DNA from: Saccoglossus kowalevskii
Lineage: Eukaryota; Hemichordata; Enteropneusta; Harrimaniidae
Assembly: GCF_000003605.2 (NCBI RefSeq)
Contig: NW_003125889.1
Coordinates: 68,022 to 95,893, forward strand
Reading direction: 5' to 3'
Length of the DNA: 27,872 bases
Below the pieces are notes generated by a model, which was given only the letters and a program-made list of their open reading frames with translations, made no database searches and was not told where the DNA came from. The translations under genes were made by a program, and so were the position numbers. Shown here in pieces: positions 16,431-27,872 of this stretch (positions are counted from its first letter, which is position 1; each line of letters opens with the position of its first letter).

Positions 16431-17396
16431 TATGTTTGACGCGATATTGGTTGTGGTGGGAATTGGCGTTGTAACTAGTCACTGCTTGGACGGTGTATTA
16501 TTATTATTACTCACAAATACAATGTGCGAGACAAAAACAATAACCATATTTCAGAAACCTATATATTTTTTTTATATATATTTTTTGTTATTTTGAAACA
16601 CGCGGGATCGAATCAGTTGGATGGATAGTGAGAAAAGACTGCACGTTCTCGTTAATTTAAACGAATATGTGTAATGTAAACGATGTATTCCGAGTAGTTT
16701 CTTTTAAAATACATATAATTGGGATACAATAAAGAACCTGCAAAGTTCTATGGACGGACAATGGGAAGTATTAGAGTAAATGTATTAACATATGTTTTGA
16801 ATATAACCTGTGAGTGATCTTGAAAAAAAAAACCATACGCACAGACCCCGGATGGAAACGAGTCGTGCTTATAGAAAGACCGTCAAAATTGTCAAATGAC
16901 CAGAAATGACGTCACGAGCCAACTTGAACAACTACGGCTAAGCAATGCATCATACAATAATGTACTGATAATTATAACGTACCTGATTTCCGGGTAACTT
17001 GGAAGGTGAATTGCCATGCATCAATCTGTTTGTTATACATTTGTGCAGTGTAACAACAGCGTTGATTTGTATAATTGTTACACTTCACCTGAGCTTACAT
17101 GGTACTTACTTCACATATGTGTATCGAAATACAATATTTAAAGCCCGTGAAAGTATATTTATTTTCTGCGAATGCACAACTATTCATCGCGGATATTGGT
17201 TGTGTGAATGGTATATGTTTCCCGTGTTGTTGCCGATGTGTATGGATTTCTGTTGCTTTTACGGTCTGAACGCCTGGCAATTGTGTTCAAATATTACGCT
17301 TGTCCATTCTGAAATTATGTACGAAAATTGTCAATCTGTTTTCTTGGTGGCATTGGCAGAAGGAGAAAATAAACAGACATCAACTTAAATGCATAA
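16431..17396. other. Intergenic stretch
   Basis: AT-rich DNA with a perfect CRE octamer at 16907-16914. A 129-codon plus-strand frame (16999-17388) has a non-ATG start and no recognisable domain. It is probably a chance frame. Confidence 0.45.
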
Positions 17397-17567
17397 GTGT
17401 TGTGAAATGGTAGTACAGTGTTTCTATTACCCCAATCGCACCACGCCAGGGGATGGATGTGGATGTAAGGCGGAAGTGTTTGGAAATTGTAGTACAGTGT
17501 TTCTATTACCCCAATCGCACCACGCCAGGGGGTGGATGTGGATGTAAGGCGGAAGTGTTTGGAAATA
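17397..17567. repeat. 79-bp direct tandem duplication
   Basis: Unit A is 17397-17475 and unit B 17476-17554, followed by a short third start (17555-17567, GTGTTTGGAAATA). The two units differ at four positions by eye, and the last 64 bases at only one. The period is not a multiple of three, so it does not preserve a reading frame. Confidence 0.93.
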
Positions 17568-20389: not shown

Positions 20390-20579
20390 CCCTTTCACCA
20401 CCAGACTTTCACGCTCAAATTTTTCAGCACTTTTTTCTTATAATCTTCAATAATTTTTGGAAATGAACCCTAAAAAAAATGGCTATTTTTGTCCAAATGT
20501 TTTGATGGAAGAAGGTGTAGACTATAAACGCGAGTATTTTGTGAATTTGTGATGAAAAGAACTGGTGGTGAACAACAGG
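20390..20579. mobile_element. TTAA-flanked MITE candidate (piggyBac-like)
   Basis: A 190-bp segment bounded by TTAA at 20386-20389 and 20580-20583. The left end reads CCCTTTCACCACCAGACTTTC. The reverse complement of the right end reads ACCTGTTGTTCACCACCAGTTC, giving imperfect inverted repeats around TTCACCACCAG. TTAA targets and ends starting CCCTTT are typical of piggyBac-type elements. No transposase is inside, as expected for a MITE. Confidence 0.6.
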
Positions 20580-20881
20580 TTAAGGTAATGTCGTCAATCA
20601 ACAACTGTATTAGAGGTGTAGACGTTTTTCATCTAGAATATACTAATCTTTCAAGAAATTCGCTGCTAGAGGGCAGCATAACTTGTCGTCAAGTGCGCAG
20701 TAGAGATGCGCGTAATACTAAAACAAGTCACTATATATTATGAGCCAGCTAAGAATATAATTCAATTCATTTTGTAAAAGATACAGGTAAATACTGAGAT
20801 AAATGAAACAAATAATGAAAACAGGTCTAAGAAGTGACCGTCAATAATAATAACACGTTCTCTCTGAGAGGAGTCCGTCAC

Positions 20882-20954
20882 TTAGTAACATTCCATGAAC
20901 ACCAGTTTGTTAGGAGTTCCTTTAGGTACTTTGGCAATCATGTTCTTGGTGGCG
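20882..20954 (-). CDS. Protease terminal exon L
   Basis: A 73-nt exon after an acceptor ending cgttacag. It completes Asn240 and encodes ATKNMIAKVPKGTPNKLVF and MECY, then TAA at 20884-20882. The ATKN...G.(T/P)N.L ending is the usual C-terminus of the S8 catalytic domain. No AATAAA was seen close downstream. Confidence 0.94.
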
Positions 20955-23900
20955 CTGTAACGACAATAACATAATTTAAACATGATATAATGAACTCACA
21001 GTCTACAGCAAACGTAGTCGACTGTGACTACCAATCGAAAAAAAACACACATTGGACATGGATTATCGCAATGCTTCCTGGTACACGAAAAGATGGAATA
21101 TCTAAATAAACACGGCCGCCTTATTGGGTATGTTTTGTTTCCATGGCAACATGCCCATTTGAAATACAGACAACCAGTCTTAAAAATATTTAAATGCCAA
21201 ACCATTAGGTGAGGTTTATGTCAAAATATTAATTGTTTAATGACTAATTATCGAATTAAAAAAATAATTATCTACAATTAAATTTCATGTTAGCAGATAT
21301 TTAATTTCTTAGCTCCATAAGGTGTGACTAAGCGTGGTTTTCCTGGAAACTACCCCACCACAAATTTGAATATCAGATCTTTACATTTATGATGTCATAT
21401 GAAAAACTTTGCATATTTGCAAAATATTATGAAATCGTCAATATATCAACATATTACATAACATCGCACATTGGGTGATTCCTCTAAATGTTAGGCCTGA
21501 TAAGGTCGGTGTGAGTAACTACGTCCTTGTCGACATCGCGACAAAATAAGTTTGTTAACTTTATAAATTTAAAACTTCAAAATGAAATTTTAAAATGAGT
21601 GCGTCACGGTCACAACTTACCACAGCGTTGTAGAGAGAAAATATTGACAATAATAAATAATGCCAGAGTCTAAACTTACTTCTTTTCTATCCACTTTTTC
21701 ACCTCAGCTGGCGTTGGTAGTGAGTTCAGCGAGCTGATGTACTTGGCTACCACCCCGGTCTGAAAAAATAAACCGAACGCAGAATTGACATGTTGGTCAA
21801 TGTTAATTTCTAACTGTTGCTTTTCTCATGTGTTCTGTTTTGCGCCACCATATTTGAATAGGCCATATTACGGGAAGTAGTTTCGTAGGTTATGTGGGTT
21901 ATGTTATGTGGTTATGTGGTAAGTAGATACAAAAAGTCCTAAGCCATTGATACTAGCCTTTCACATACATCCCAGCTTTTATAAACAAACAAACAAACAA
22001 ACAAATCCCAAGAATACGATTCTTTATGTTTTACTTACCACGTGTGCTACTGAGAATGACGTTCCTAGAAGACAAAAATCACACAATTAAAACATCAATC
22101 AAATTATCCACTGTCTTAATTTTATACTATCGCTTAGGAGTACAATGCATGTGAAGCCCTGCACATATATGACGTCATGCGTCGCATATACCGAAACCAT
22201 CCGAAAATTACCGATTGTCCAGATAAAAGAATTATTCGCTTAGCGGAGAGATCTTGAACCCCTTTTACTTTAGAGATACATTCAGCAACATACAACAATA
22301 TAAGTTTATTAAGAATCTAATAAACGATTTATTGATGCGTTATTTTGTTCAGAAACATCAACACATTGTGATACAAGGATGTCTCTTACCAGATTTAGTG
22401 GTGACTGAAACTGGACCACGTATTCCGCATGACGCAATGCCTTGACCCTGAAGGGGAAAATAGTGAAGAGATGAATTCGACGTCTTAACACGGTAGAGGC
22501 TTTGCTCATCTCTCGGTGTGTAAATGACTAAACAGTCCAAATAATGTAACCAATCAAATGTCGTGTTATAAACTGTTTCTTACAACTTAAGACGCGCTAT
22601 TTGGTTGGACGAATATTTTTAGAGAAATAGCTGCCTGAACGCAACACACCCATTGAATGCAGTATGCACAATGGAATTGCAATTTATTTATTAACATATA
22701 TTTTGCTTTTCGACTACTTTTCAAGTATTTTGCCGCTATAAGCTGCGAAATGTTCACCGAGAAAAGTAGAAAGTCTCAATATACCGGTGCAAGGATATTC
22801 ACGCATTTGCCGACGTTGCTGTAAACACAGAACCGATCGGAAGACGTAGTGCAGCCAACTGTTATCCTGCAATCAGAAAAAAATATCCGTTATACGAATC
22901 TAATTCAAACGTCCTCAACGCCGACGTATAGCGTTATTAGCGTTAAATTAATCTAAAACCCACATTATCCTATGCACCACATACAATATTATTTTATAAT
23001 AATTTGTATGATATGTATGCCCAACTAAAGCGAATAACGTTGTATACTTCGCGTGGGACTCGTGTCGATCAAGAAGCGATGCGACGACGTTTAATATGTC
23101 GCAAATAATGCTTTTGTGGGTGCTCAATTCTATAAAAGTATTTATCCTCGGGGGCGGAGCTACGTCACGGACGTTCTACGTTGCTAAGACGCGCACCACT
23201 GTACCACGTATTTCTATGGGCTTTGTGCGCGCTGCTGTGGAACGCCGGTCGAGCCGGTGAAAACTCGAGAAAACAACACAAACTCAACTTTGAAGTAATC
23301 CCGAACAACCAAATTCATATATGTTACACACGTAGAGCTAATCTTGTAACACTGTTCAGGGGACTCTCAACAACCATTGCAAAGTACCGTTTTCTGCGAG
23401 TTTTTTGTCTTTGTTTTCACCGCGAGGGTTGCCAGGCGGTAGAAAATGCCCGGATGTCCGCCCCCGAGGATAAAGCATATTTGAAATGCTACAATTGTCG
23501 CAATGCATGTGTTCCAATTCGTGTAAACAAACATTGGTCCCCGAAAATTTGCCGTCATCCAATCACATAATAGTGGAGTTTGATTGTCAACCAATGATGA
23601 TCAGTTAGATTAACCGTCATCCAATCGTAGATAACACAATTTGTCCGCCATACAATTATAGATAGCAGTGTTTGGTCATCGTATAATGATGACGATAATT
23701 TGCATATAATATATAATATAATTACAATTACTGTTAAATTAAGTCTCCTAAGGACTGCAACAATATGTTGATATTTGTAATAAATATGGCTATACCAATT
23801 TGATATTATTTTAAATTCGTTAATCAAAATAGAAAACAAGAATCAAATATATTCTTTTGTCCAGAAGTTCACGAGTAGAAAGATACATGTATCAATGTAT

Positions 23901-26900
23901 ATGTAACTTACATTATACATATATAAACATATCACAACTATATGCCTCTATTAAGTATTTACGCATTATTTATGAACAACACGACACAGACGTAAAATTA
24001 TTAATCTGTCAATTAAAATGTTTAGACACAACCGGACTGCATAGCGATGCAACTCCCGTATTGTTTAATTAAAAAAACAATACAATTTAATTTGGTTGTT
24101 TATAAATGCATTTTTAAAAGCTTGTCTGTTTTTTTCTATCTGACAGGCACTAATTGTTGAATATACTGTTAGACATACATACGCTGTTTTAACGCTAGCT
24201 GGTGATAGTTTACAAGCATCGTCGAATTCATTGCCTGCTGCCACAACCGTTGTTACGCCCTACGACGAAAAGATAGAAATTGGTTAATGCAAATCATTCG
24301 GTGAGTGATTATTCTGGTTAGAAGATGCTACGGCGTCTTATGGCGAACCCAGTCACAGTACGTATAGAGTCGACTCGTCTTTACGACACAGTTGCCGTGT
24401 TTTTTTTACGTGTCATGTACAACACTCTAGACGAGACGAGCGAATACCCACTACGTTCAATAGTATAGGTAATCCAGTAAGAACGTAAGCAAACATAAAA
24501 TAAAATAAAATCCAAATGACGGACTTTTATTATTGACATGGTCACTATACGAGTCAACGATACTTGAATATCTAAACAGTCTATAATCTCTATACATGTA
24601 TTGTTTATCATAATACGTAACATATGGAAGTATGGAAGTCTGACATTTCCCGAAAATTCAACTCTTTTATCTATTTATCTATCTATCTATCTAAGAAACT
24701 CACGCTGCCAATCAGACTTTCTACAGCTCGGTTCACAGAATGCGAACGTCTTACACCAATGGACATGCTATAATTGTGAGAAAAATATGCGTTATTAAAA
24801 TATATTATTATTGTAATGCTTGGCACGTCATGTTCAATGTTCTTTAATATAGGATATTATTATACATCTGTCACCGTAACGCCATAAATTACAGCGTCTT
24901 CAGCGTTCCGTAATTTTGCGGTATTGCACTGGGTATTTTCATCCTACCATATTAGGAAATGCGAATTCCAAATAAGGAACGATTACGCGCGTAAGCGTAA
25001 TAATAAAAACAAACATGGCAGCCCCCAGATGTTGACCGGACCCCATACAAAGAAGTTCGCTCATTCTGTTCTAAACTGTTTGTATTTCGGCATTCTCATG
25101 ATGTATACTTGGGAGGAAAAGTATATAATAATAAGGTTATTACGAGGATACCGAAAAGTTTGCTGCGCGTCGGTCGATACTTCCGCTGTACTGTCTTCGA
25201 GCATATTTTTCGGTATCATCATAATAACCTCACAGTATTCGACGTAAGTAATAATAATTTCAAAAAAAGCTTAAAGGAAGTCTGCAGACTGGAGCTAGAT
25301 TTAAAAAAACACATGAAGTTCAAACATAATTGAAAACAAAAACTAGCCTATTGTTTATTTAAATTTGTATTGAGTTCATATTCTAATTAAAAAAAGGTAT
25401 TATTTTAACTTAATTACAATTGTTCAAAATGTTAAGGAGAATAAGTATTAAAAATACCACGAGAAACTTTCATAGTCGAGTCAAATGCACGACGACACCA
25501 GCTTTGTCATTTGCTCATGAATAATTCAATGCAATTGAAATTCATGTGACCTTCCTAAAACCCATTTTTCCTCGACACCTTCATTGGAAATTAGGAGATT
25601 AGAGGCTCTATCTGAGGTGGTTGCTGTTGTGGGTTCCAAACCTTCCATTTCCAAATTTTCTACAATTGAGGACAAAGTCCAGACGGGTCACATGACCAAA
25701 AGAAGTAAAAAATTATGAACCCTCGTAAAAACGAATTTCCATTGAAAGGCTTGATGCTGTCAATCGAGTACGATTTCGACGGAAGTGCATCAAATAACCC
25801 AATATTGCGTGGTTTCTCACACAAATTGTGACCAAGGTTGAAGACAATTGGTTAATATTATATGGAAATGATCGTGGTCAATTCGTTCAACTTTAAGTTG
25901 GTCTTTGCATTGTACATTCCCCTATACGTGACAAGAGTGTGTCTAGAGAATTTGACCATATATGGTTAAATGGTTCAGATGTTTTTACGAAACCTCGACA
26001 GCAAAAGTATAAGGTCAATAAGGTAAGTAAAACTTACTTAGCTTGATATATTTAACATGGTCTTCAAATAATATAACGGTTATTGATGTGCATGTTACAT
26101 CAATTGAAAGAAAAATGTACAACTGTGATTTGAAATCCGACGATAAACTATAAAACACAGGCATACACCTGCCCACACATCTCACATATACACATAAATG
26201 GTAAAATCAATTATTTTTACTGTGTGTAAGATGACGAAAAATCACTTACTTAGCAACTGATCCATTAGCTCGAGTAATTTTAGACATCTTTTTAAGATGC
26301 TGGTCTTCAACCCATACTGCACCCTTAATTATAGACCTTCAACATAGTGTGTAACAGCATTAATAATATTATTAAAAATACAATCGATATCTTGAAACGA
26401 ATATTAGTTTCATAATAGATTGTAAATACATGGACTCACTTTGTCGATCCTTTTCCTCTTCTATTTAATACCTTTACTGCAATTAGATTTGCCATCTTTG
26501 CAATCCCAAAAATAGCACCACCAATAGTACCTTGTTGAAAGAACACGCAATGCTTACAAAATATGTACACACTGAATATCAATCGACAATGATATATTTG
26601 AATTATGTTCTAAAAAAATAGATTTCAGGATTTGACAGCAGCATCTTCGAAAATTTAGTTTAATTGTATACCCTAGGTCGCGTATATTGGCAGAAGCAGG
26701 AAGTGACGTAGGACATTTAACTTATGATGTACTATTCAGACTCACCTGCAGCATGTGTACCATGGCCATGTTGATCTGTTAAGGGGGATGGTGAATCGAT
26801 GGTGTCAGTGCCCTAAATATGAAAACATGACAGCAGACATGAATTAATAAGAAAATCATTATATTGTGCTTGAATGTAAGAACTCACGAGTCGTCACCTA

Positions 26901-27439
26901 TGATCATAAATTGATAATTCCTAGAGTTGATGCTTTTCATGGGCAATAATATATTATTTCAAATGTGGTATGCGTACAACAAAAGAAATAATGATGTCTC
27001 TGCATTTGCACCAACAGTCTGGAGACACAAGTTGATACTTCTCATTGTGTTTTGCTATTTACTCTCAGCCCTACTCTTACGAGTCAAAAAACTGTCACAC
27101 TATTCTGTACTTCTTTTTATCTCCGATGAGCAGAGTATGACTTAAGAAACGTACATGTAATGGACAACACTCACCCACTTCGCCCTTCCTCCGAGGTCTT
27201 TATGTTGCAAATAAATCCCCCTGATAAAGCAATACAAATACTCTTGAATAATATGTCAGTCAACCTGGGTGTATTACGTAATGTCACTGCAACATTGTTT
27301 GATTTCATATTAATACATACAATACAATTTGTGCGGTACACGTTAAAATCAGTTCAATAGTTACGTAAGTTCCCTTAGTGTATTGATTATACTCACGTAT
27401 CAAAGACGTACACATCGACATTATCACCCACCGAATTAG
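20882..27439 (-). CDS. Proteinase-K-like subtilisin serine protease, 12 exons, 5' partial
   Basis: CDS is complement of 27439..27397, 27220..27175, 26812..26746, 26530..26440, 26336..26250, 24767..24704, 24259..24183, 22866..22785, 22447..22390, 22064..22039, 21759..21680 and 20954..20882: 794 nt, 263 complete residues plus stop. All introns are GT-AG and every phase matches. The catalytic residues of peptidase family S8 are present: Asp13 (DVYVFDTG), His46 (HGHGTHAAG), oxyanion Asn142 (VVAAGNE) and Ser207 (GTSFSVAHV). Spacing from Asp to Ser (194) and Ser to the end (56) fits proteinase K (185 and 55). DDAC..SPAS and the AHV after GTS recall PCSK9, but no PCSK9-type C-terminal domain follows. 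Family members cleave peptide bonds and are usually secreted with an I9 prodomain. That part and about 25 further residues lie outside the window. The protease is probably active; the substrate is unknown. Confidence 0.96.
21680..21759 (-). CDS. Protease exon K
   Basis: An 80-nt exon after an acceptor ending ttttcag, donor gtaagt. It encodes TGVVAKYISSLNSLPTPAEV and then KKWIEK, the helix after the GTS motif and the TPAEV...I segment. Reading into the intron gives an immediate TAA (21678-21676) made by the donor itself. Confidence 0.95.
21986..22005. repeat. (AAAC)n microsatellite
   Basis: About five AAAC units in the intron between protease exons J and K. Confidence 0.85.
22039..22064 (-). 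CDS. Protease microexon J (catalytic Ser, 26 nt)
   Basis: A 26-nt exon between an acceptor ending gtcttctag and the donor gtaagt. It encodes the end of Gly205 and TSFSVAHV, including nucleophile Ser207. Its length is not a multiple of three, so skipping it would both remove Ser and shift the frame. Confidence 0.93.
22390..22447 (-). CDS. Protease exon I
   Basis: A 58-nt exon after an acceptor ending ccccttcag, donor gtaaga. It encodes GQGIASCGIRGPVSVTTKS and the first base of the Gly of the GTS motif. This is the loop before the nucleophile. Confidence 0.93.
22785..22866 (-). CDS. Protease exon H
   Basis: An 82-nt exon after an acceptor ending gattgcag, donor gtatat. It encodes ITVGCTTSSDRFCVYSNVGK and then CVNILAP, matching the ITVGAT..D....FSN.G.CVDIFAPG block. 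Three Cys (163, 171, 179) stand where most relatives have one or two. Confidence 0.95.
23554..23702. repeat. Decayed ~30-bp minisatellite in a protease intron
   Basis: Five diverged units begin at 23554, 23586, 23616, 23647 and 23675 (28-32 bases each). Most start GTCATCCAATC or a variant, and most end in a TTTG or ATT-rich half. The intron is between exons G and H. Confidence 0.65.
24183..24259 (-). CDS. Protease exon G (oxyanion Asn)
   Basis: A 77-nt exon after an acceptor ending tcgtag, donor gtatgt. It encodes GVTTVVAAGNEFDDACKLSP and then ASVKT. Asn142 of AAGN is the oxyanion-hole residue. DDAC and SPAS are conserved in the proteinase-K/PCSK9 group. Confidence 0.97.
24674..24692. repeat. 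(TATC)n microsatellite
   Basis: A short run of TATC/ATCT tetranucleotides immediately beyond the donor of protease exon F. Confidence 0.85.
24704..24767 (-). CDS. Protease exon F (altered SLGG motif)
   Basis: A 64-nt exon after an acceptor ending aattatag, donor gtgagt. It encodes MSIGVRRSHSVNRAVESLIG and S. The family's SLGG substrate-pocket motif reads SIGV. The following A-V-E-S-L helix is normal. Confidence 0.93.
24856..25232 (+). repeat. Dispersed repeat, copy 2 (in a protease intron)
   Basis: Collinear, diverged copy of 20032-20381 in the same orientation, inside the intron between exons E and F. It differs mainly by the inner foldback: AGGTTATTACGAGGATACC... (25134-25157) pairs with 25207-25230 at 22 of 24 positions around a 49-base loop. 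Copy 1 has only the right-hand arm. Confidence 0.85.
26250..26336 (-). CDS. Protease exon E
   Basis: An 87-nt exon, acceptor after ttgaag, donor gtaagt. It encodes SIIKGAVWVEDQHLKKMSKI and TRANGSVA. This is the helix and loop leading to the SLGG strand, about two residues longer than in proteinase K. Confidence 0.92.
26440..26530 (-). CDS. Protease exon D
   Basis: A 91-nt exon, donor gtgagt. It encodes TIGGAIFGIAKMANLIAVKV and then LNRRGKGST, the conserved G(T/V)(I/V)GG...GIAK.A.L.AVKVL...G.GS strand-turn-strand after the His motif. Confidence 0.95.
26746..26812 (-). CDS. Protease exon C (catalytic His)
   Basis: A 67-nt exon after an acceptor ending atatttag, with donor gtgagt. It encodes GTDTIDSPSPLTDQHGHGTH and then AA, with catalytic His46 in HGTH. 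It starts in phase 0 and ends in phase 1. Confidence 0.96.
27175..27220 (-). CDS. Protease exon B
   Basis: A 46-nt exon after an acceptor ending ttatcag, with donor gtgagt. It completes Thr14 and adds GIYLQHKDLGGRAKW, matching the DTGI...H.EF.GRA segment that follows the catalytic Asp in proteinase-K relatives. It ends in phase 0. Confidence 0.92.
27397..27439 (-). CDS. Protease exon A (catalytic Asp)
   Basis: This 43-nt exon follows an acceptor ending atccag and precedes gtgagt. After a split codon it reads NSVGDNVDVYVFD, with Asp13 in the VFDTG motif. The preceding exon ends phase 1 and is not found in the remaining 433 bases of the window. Confidence 0.92.
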
Positions 27440-27872
27440 CTGGATAAAAATAATACATGAGTGTTCACTCCATTGTTTCAATAATAATAGGACTACGAGT
27501 ATATGCAATACAATTTACGATTAGCCTATTACATGATGAAATGCAAAGCCTCAGTTCTTGAATTCACCAAATAAACCACAGTGCGAACAGGTCGAAAACA
27601 AGCTGAACAAATACATTGAAAATAGAAATTCACTTGTAATTCAATGAATTGGATACTGAGATTGGTATGTGTATAGGTAACATAATACTGACAAAAGAAT
27701 AATATTTATTATTAAGTGAAAATGTGACCTTAACTTGCTTTCCATTGTTCTGTTATCATATGTCACATTTGAGCACGTCAGTAGTTAGTAGTAATTTCAT
27801 TTTATACTTCTTTTAGAAATTTGATATTATGTTTTGAACATTCAACCCTGCAACATCTTTTGTAAATGGAAA
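27440..27872. other. Protease intron upstream of exon A
   Basis: AT-rich sequence. I looked on the minus strand for an exon ending in phase 1 with the expected start of the S8 catalytic domain, and for a prodomain, and saw neither. The 5' part of the gene therefore probably lies past the window edge. Confidence 0.6.

Follow-up and report, generated by a model that had tools for sequence, protein, structure and literature searches.

The window, a 27,872-nucleotide (nt) stretch of the Saccoglossus kowalevskii genome (contig NW_003125889.1, positions 68,022 to 95,893), corresponds to C1840:68022-95893, C1840 being the contig that carries the gene studied here. This gene (the window gene) lies on the minus strand at window positions 20882-27439, where twelve exons encode the catalytic domain of an S8 serine protease. 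The exon sequences, each of which occurs once on that strand, are 26-91 nt long; AG is present ahead of every exon and GT behind exons 1-11. Joined, they amount to 794 nt and form a single open frame of 263 codons that ends with a TAA stop. A preliminary description of the DNA had proposed twelve minus-strand pieces with splice sites of their own and in-phase joining, all of which was borne out. The eleven introns are 176, 362, 215, 103, 1482, 444, 1316, 337, 325, 279 and 725 nt long, and they interrupt the coding sequence at positions 14/2, 29/0, 52/1, 82/2, 111/2, 132/0, 158/2, 185/0, 205/1, 213/0 and 240/2 (residue/phase).

The catalytic Asp13 (VFDTG) is encoded in exon 1 (27397..27439, 43 nt), which is followed by exon 2 (27175..27220, 46 nt) and exon 3 (26746..26812, 67 nt), the latter with the catalytic His46 (HGTH). 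Exons 4 (26440..26530, 91 nt) and 5 (26250..26336, 87 nt) come next. Exon 5 is the only one among exons 2-11 with a length that is a multiple of three, and exons 2-5 recur with equal lengths in a neighbouring gene copy described below. Exon 6 (24704..24767, 64 nt) precedes exon 7 (24183..24259, 77 nt) with the oxyanion Asn142 (AAGN), exon 8 (22785..22866, 82 nt) and exon 9 (22390..22447, 58 nt). The nucleophile Ser207 (GTSFSVAHV) is located in exon 10, a micro-exon of 26 nt (22039..22064), and the domain is completed by exon 11 (21680..21759, 80 nt) and by exon 12 with the stop codon (20882..20954, 73 nt). Evidence for all twelve comes from the joined frame and from protein-to-DNA alignment, by which the donor of exon 1, the acceptor of exon 12 and exons 2-11 were re-derived.

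Because the exons had first been joined by eye towards a known domain, a non-circular test of the junctions was needed. A splice-aware protein-to-DNA aligner was written for the purpose, and foreign proteins were threaded onto the raw DNA of window positions 20500-27872. Keratinase (5wsl), aqualysin (4dzt) and two bacterial genomic proteins (L058 and L059) each recovered all eleven introns exactly, both at the standard and at a lower penalty; at the latter, L059 called one additional intron. Scores of these four proteins on the minus strand were 409-468 at the standard penalty. A paralogue from the same genome, C2445, recovered ten of the eleven intron pairs, with twelve introns called and a score of 375. 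At the standard penalty the five proteins scored 40-66 on the plus strand, and keratinase scored 35-66 on 12 resampled DNAs; at the lower penalty, keratinase reached 478 on the real DNA versus 100-126 on eight resampled DNAs. At the level of sequence, the twelve predicted exons are thereby confirmed as genuine and as encoding a normal-looking S8 protease domain.

The PF00082 profile aligned with residues 4-244 of the joined protein (E 6.1e-34; 118.1 bits, cut-off 21.8) and was the only Pfam domain in the 263 residues. The alignment runs across Asp, His and Ser, and D13, H46, N142 and S207 are all present, in agreement with the intact proteinase-K-like domain of the preliminary description, which had proposed this profile search as a check. 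A phmmer search retrieved 146 distinct PDB sequences at E <= 0.001, with keratinase 5wsl as the best match (1.4e-53) and aqualysin 4dzt and proteinase K 2b6n also among them. PCSK9 scored below bacterial and fungal enzymes, being outranked by 14 PDB rows (five proteinase K, one aqualysin-1, one keratinase, and the remainder differently named proteases that are presumably also of the proteinase K type).

In a six-row alignment of the window protein with five bacterial structures, D13, H46 and N142 were invariant, and S207 was found in five rows and replaced by Ala in 8c4z. The catalytic Asp, His, Asn and Ser are common to the window protein and the aqualysin/keratinase/proteinase K group of S8A (5wsl, 4dzt, 2b6n, 1ic6), from which the window gene differs in being eukaryotic and in having 11 introns. 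Identity to the five bacterial structures was 43-45% over the whole-domain alignment. Cys148 and Cys179, invariant in the bacterial rows, are kept in the window protein, whereas Cys is missing at their DCNGHGTH and VLNC/VLDC sites; additional features are four extra Cys (163, 171, 192, 262) and a nine-residue insert at 99-107. The stop codon in exon 12 directly follows the catalytic domain, with no residues beyond. Furin/kexin convertases have a P domain after the catalytic domain, and PCSK9 has a Cys-rich C-terminal domain; the window gene, ending where it does, contains neither. PCSK9 resembles it in being a proteinase K-like animal subtilase and in having AHV rather than PHV after the nucleophile Ser. 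Judged from its sequence, the window gene is a proteinase K/aqualysin-type S8 serine protease gene of an animal, and the predicted enzyme is an ordinary one.

Related genes were sought in the 572-Mb assembly (4830 contigs). A six-frame PF00082 scan, in which the best candidates were scored, listed 33 places at E <= 0.001, none of them on C1840. When the joined protein was used instead, 56 places were found, nine of which were pieces of the window gene and one the neighbouring copy. The earlier suggestion that gene callers could lose parts of this gene thus holds for the profile scan but not for the joined-protein search; single-exon profile searches can miss such intron-rich genes.

Intron positions were compared in a first-pass alignment with the window protein as query and 17 rows outside C1840 (C3060 omitted for length). 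By our own count, 15 of the 16 rows covering or almost covering it had junction 157/0, 13 of 14 had 215/1, and no position of the window gene recurred. After this first pass, C2445 was used as query, which gave 24 rows, two from C1840 and 22 from other contigs; these are selected loci rather than every listed place, and they are not all independent, two being a near-identical C3060 duplicate. Among the 22 rows, a junction at 37-40/0, in a loop of varying length, was found in 10 of 12 spanning rows, 87/1 in 16 of 18, and 157/0 and 215/1 in 18 of 18 each. Exceptions were two rows with stops in frame, the fragment C3701, and C2117, in which a long join is implausible. Altogether the 22 rows contain 75 introns, of which 63 occupy the four common places and none any of the window gene's 11 positions.

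The introns of human PCSK9, which we take to cut codons 175/1, 219/0, 267/1, 332/0 and 394/1, map via its PDB sequence to window residues 2, 39/0, 87/1, 157/0 and 215/1 (set A). None of the four internal positions occurs in the window gene, in which the nearest introns are 30, 14, 2 and 4 nt away (30 and 14 nt for 39/0 and 87/1), whereas other aligned genes possess them. Since these PCSK9 introns coincide with set A, the set is probably an old one among animals, from which the window gene departs. The proteinase K-like genes with set-A introns (C4556, C131, C2445, C2347, C2747, C2117, C3060, C3701, C3985 and C3626) encode the same domain, with 36-48% identity to the window protein in the 16 rows compared, but they have four introns at common positions where the window gene has eleven elsewhere. 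The fragmentation of the gene, described as extreme on first inspection, is so when set against the four introns over the same stretch in alignable relatives. The Asp exon begins at 2/1 in nine readable set-A rows (by eye; two are the duplicate) versus 0/1 in the window gene.

Two loci of this family call for separate mention. On C3060, two set-A rows with in-frame stops (L046, L047) lie next to a gene that is present in duplicate, its copies nearly identical (C3060:7.6-9.0 kb and 26.9-28.3 kb); they represent either pseudogenes or an assembly duplication. C4171 contains an intronless 588-amino-acid (aa) convertase open reading frame (L050, 4860-6626, minus strand) and, about 13 kb from it, a second, shorter S8 piece. 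The former looks like a processed gene and the latter like a decayed relative. Bacterial contamination was considered for these intronless genes and dropped, as the longer one has an S8 pro-domain, an S8 domain and a convertase P domain.

Directly past the window, the contig contains a run of N (assembly gap, C1840:95894-97372). Beyond it, three minus-strand exons (C1840:99951-100034, 99396-99516 and 99025-99083) match the I9 prodomain when joined (PF05922; E 8.3e-7, 30.0 bits, cut-off 21.2), although the donor of the third is weak. When C1840:100060-112000 (about 12 kb) was scanned for a hydrophobic phase-1 exon starting with Met, a single candidate signal-peptide exon emerged, which encodes 17 residues (C1840:104915-104966) and is in phase with the next exon. 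Of the extension predicted past position 27872, the I9 prodomain, a feature of proteinase K-type enzymes, was therefore found in the window gene, and the signal peptide is represented by this single candidate from a hydrophobicity scan. The linker exon expected to join the prodomain to the catalytic domain was sought in the sequence beyond the window but not found; it may lie in the assembly gap, and a phase 1-1 exon would fit. In the C3060 gene, the linker exon carries a WGMDRTDQR stretch. With these upstream exons, if all are correct, the gene would extend over about 16 kb. Between the gap and the prodomain exons (C1840:97463-98998, L009) there is also an open stretch of 203 aa, of which a part of 103 residues matched nothing in Pfam, and a short repeat, open in several frames. 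Going by what is known of the family, the signal peptide would direct export of the zymogen, the I9 prodomain would aid folding and inhibit the enzyme, and self-cleavage would yield a mature serine endopeptidase of about 280 residues without a C-terminal domain. A role in digestion or extracellular protein turnover is a default guess.

A second copy of the gene is located on C1840 on the same strand, 43-45 kb from the window gene. Its exons 2-5 (C1840:137675-140079) are identical in length to those of the window gene (46, 67, 91 and 87 nt), with AG/GT at every border; exons 1 and 6-12 were not found within the 6.1 kb searched. Over 96 codons, the two copies differ at proportions of 0.64 for synonymous (pS) and 0.20 for nonsynonymous sites (pN), corresponding to 1.42 synonymous (dS) and 0.23 nonsynonymous substitutions per site (dN) and a dN/dS of about 0.16. 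The split between the copies is old and exons 2-5 are under purifying selection. Intron sequences of the two copies show no similarity, and the introns at the five borders seen in both most likely predate the local duplication.

Mass insertion of introner type was considered as a source of the introns and rejected, as no similarity (E 0.01) was detected among the eleven introns or between them and three introns of the copy. Intron 5, the one intron searched against the genome, harbours an interspersed repeat of about 390 base pairs (bp) (24846..25238, no strand assigned; intron positions ~1012-1404), which sits well away from the intron borders. Scoring of 40 of 3603 first-look candidates gave 40 long matches to the repeat on other contigs, at 74-86% identity; a few short reverse-strand matches to the region were seen as well.

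Further features of the window are pieces of a paired-class homeobox gene and a tandem repeat. The homeobox gene lies in pieces on the minus strand at window positions ~1050-1511 and ~3773 downwards; its homeodomain part has a Pfam match (2.5e-12), with aristaless-like 4 as the best PDB match, and another piece, an open reading frame, includes an OAR motif and, read by eye, the last part of helix 3. This homeobox gene marks the host as an animal, as does a mitochondrial contig whose COX1 contains TGA in frame and has ATA at sites normally occupied by Ile, AAA being rare; this pattern may be Ambulacraria-like. The tandem repeat (17395-17566) consists of 2.2 copies of a 79-bp unit with 95% match.

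Relatives outside animals were sought with peptide patterns. Six exact patterns, which reach close relatives only, hit four stretches in viral contigs, and a scan of the same kind hit 40 stretches in bacterial and archaeal genomes; none of either was a confirmed relative. By means of alignment A1, at least 564 bacterial and archaeal relatives were found and the best 80 kept. Each of these best 80 matches as a single uninterrupted stretch. To widen the bacterial sampling for the paralogues, 200 genomes from a single phylum were scanned; the one genome that matched was the centre genome itself, and this sample was not used. A tree of 56 rows was built from 31 relatives with less than 72% mutual identity, the five bacterial PDB rows, PCSK9, proteinase K, the two C1840 genes and 16 of the 22 set-A rows (rows of fewer than 140 residues, rows with stops and one identical row were dropped, and one row was trimmed).

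In this tree, the C1840 pair (support 99/97) falls within a set that includes 20 rows from Actinomycetota and Pseudomonadota (96/88), while the 16 set-A paralogues form a separate group (91/99). The bacteria were on one side of a branch in 0% of 200 bootstrap trees, and again in 0% with a 48-row tree from which eight long, short or near-duplicate rows had been removed. This topology favours a separate bacterial transfer, in which a proteinase K-type gene was taken up apart from the PCSK9-type family and acquired all of its introns afterwards. Identities point the same way, with 49% to L058 (score 555) and 48% to L059 (540) as opposed to 48% to the nearest paralogue C2445 at a lower score (464), as do the threading scores, which were higher for the bacterial proteins than for C2445. 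However, a tree constrained to unite the two animal groups was worse by 10.7 log units with 56 rows and by 11.0 with 48 rows, and was not rejected in the approximately unbiased (AU) test (p-AU 0.32 and 0.26). The window branch is very long (2.56 in the 48-row tree) and of odd composition, and when the neighbouring copy was left out, no starred set of half the rows or fewer contained the window gene and the bootstrap was not settled. Moreover, the patterns used to choose the bacterial sample were derived from an alignment with the window protein at its head, which favours the separate-transfer reading. The tree thus leans to a separate bacterial root for the predicted window lineage but allows a joint animal origin, and we regard separate transfer as a tentative explanation.

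Origin of the window gene inside the animal family, with the old introns lost through reverse transcription of a spliced messenger RNA and new ones gained by the gene later, is compatible with the AU tests. The nearest paralogue is 48% identical, and processed S8 copies seem to arise in this genome, as the intronless convertase frame on C4171 indicates. The window gene nevertheless falls outside the paralogue group in the trees, and such a retrocopy appears rather unlikely. A very early split, with independent intron gain in descendants of one intronless gene of an early eukaryote or animal, or with sliding of some old introns that were kept, would agree with the uninterrupted matches of the 80 bacterial relatives and, for partial sliding, with the near-coincident junctions considered next. 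No junction is exactly common to both groups, though, and even if the two internal near misses had slid, nine introns would still have to be newly acquired; this course of events also seems doubtful. That chance splice sites or a decaying pseudogene account for the structure is highly improbable in view of the independent queries that recover all junctions, the open frame with intact catalytic residues and the low dN/dS over 96 codons, even if the assembly gap after the window and the missing linker exon would fit it.

Several points weigh against an intron set that arose wholly apart from that of the family. Three window-gene borders are near misses with family junctions, namely 0/1 versus 2/1 (6 nt, same phase), 158/2 versus 157/0 (2 nt) and 213/0 versus 215/1 (4 nt), and the chance of two of four junctions falling within 4 nt is 0.08. 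Intron sliding could therefore explain some of these three. The border at 87/1 depends on the query: it was seen in only 6 of 12 spanning rows of the first pass, with scattered calls at 88-109 elsewhere. In the 56-row tree PCSK9 is placed next to a bacterial row, on a branch of very great length and outside set A, so that the tree itself gives no support to a link between the two. Variant labels in PMC11719334 (c.385 in exon 2, c.1030 and c.1152 in exon 7, c.1487 in exon 9) agree with the PCSK9 borders taken for the comparison, which is partial agreement only; PMC12711128 lists primer pairs for 12 exons, and the passages of PMC3152176 and PMC9291778 give no exon borders.

Given that none of the 75 family introns is at a window-gene position, the most likely ancestor of the window lineage is one that was intronless in the catalytic domain and accumulated introns afterwards, and we consider this likely overall. 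The lineage, consisting of the window gene and its neighbouring copy, has its 11 catalytic-domain introns outside both the positions common to the other aligned family genes and the PCSK9 positions used here. Its intronless start could have come about by old uptake of a bacterial gene, by an old retrocopy or by a split before intron gain; intron gain would have followed, and at the five borders known from both copies it would predate the local duplication. After such a start, the lineage probably gained its own introns, numbering eight to eleven or more. A course of events that is, taken as a whole, rather unlikely is the entry of a bacterial proteinase K-type gene into the animal lineage independently of the PCSK9 family, followed by the gain of about 16 introns: 11 within the catalytic domain, three around the prodomain (provided that the signal exon is correct) and probably two at the unseen linker exon. 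If true, a transferred gene would have become heavily loaded with introns in an animal.

The protein belongs to a known enzyme type, and the intron set is the real oddity. In a literature search judged by titles and the beginnings of abstracts, no earlier report of this intron pattern was found. With about 20 related genes or fragments that have four introns in common and a small lineage that has eleven different ones, a single genome offers a natural experiment, and comparison of orthologues would make intron gain in an animal gene datable.

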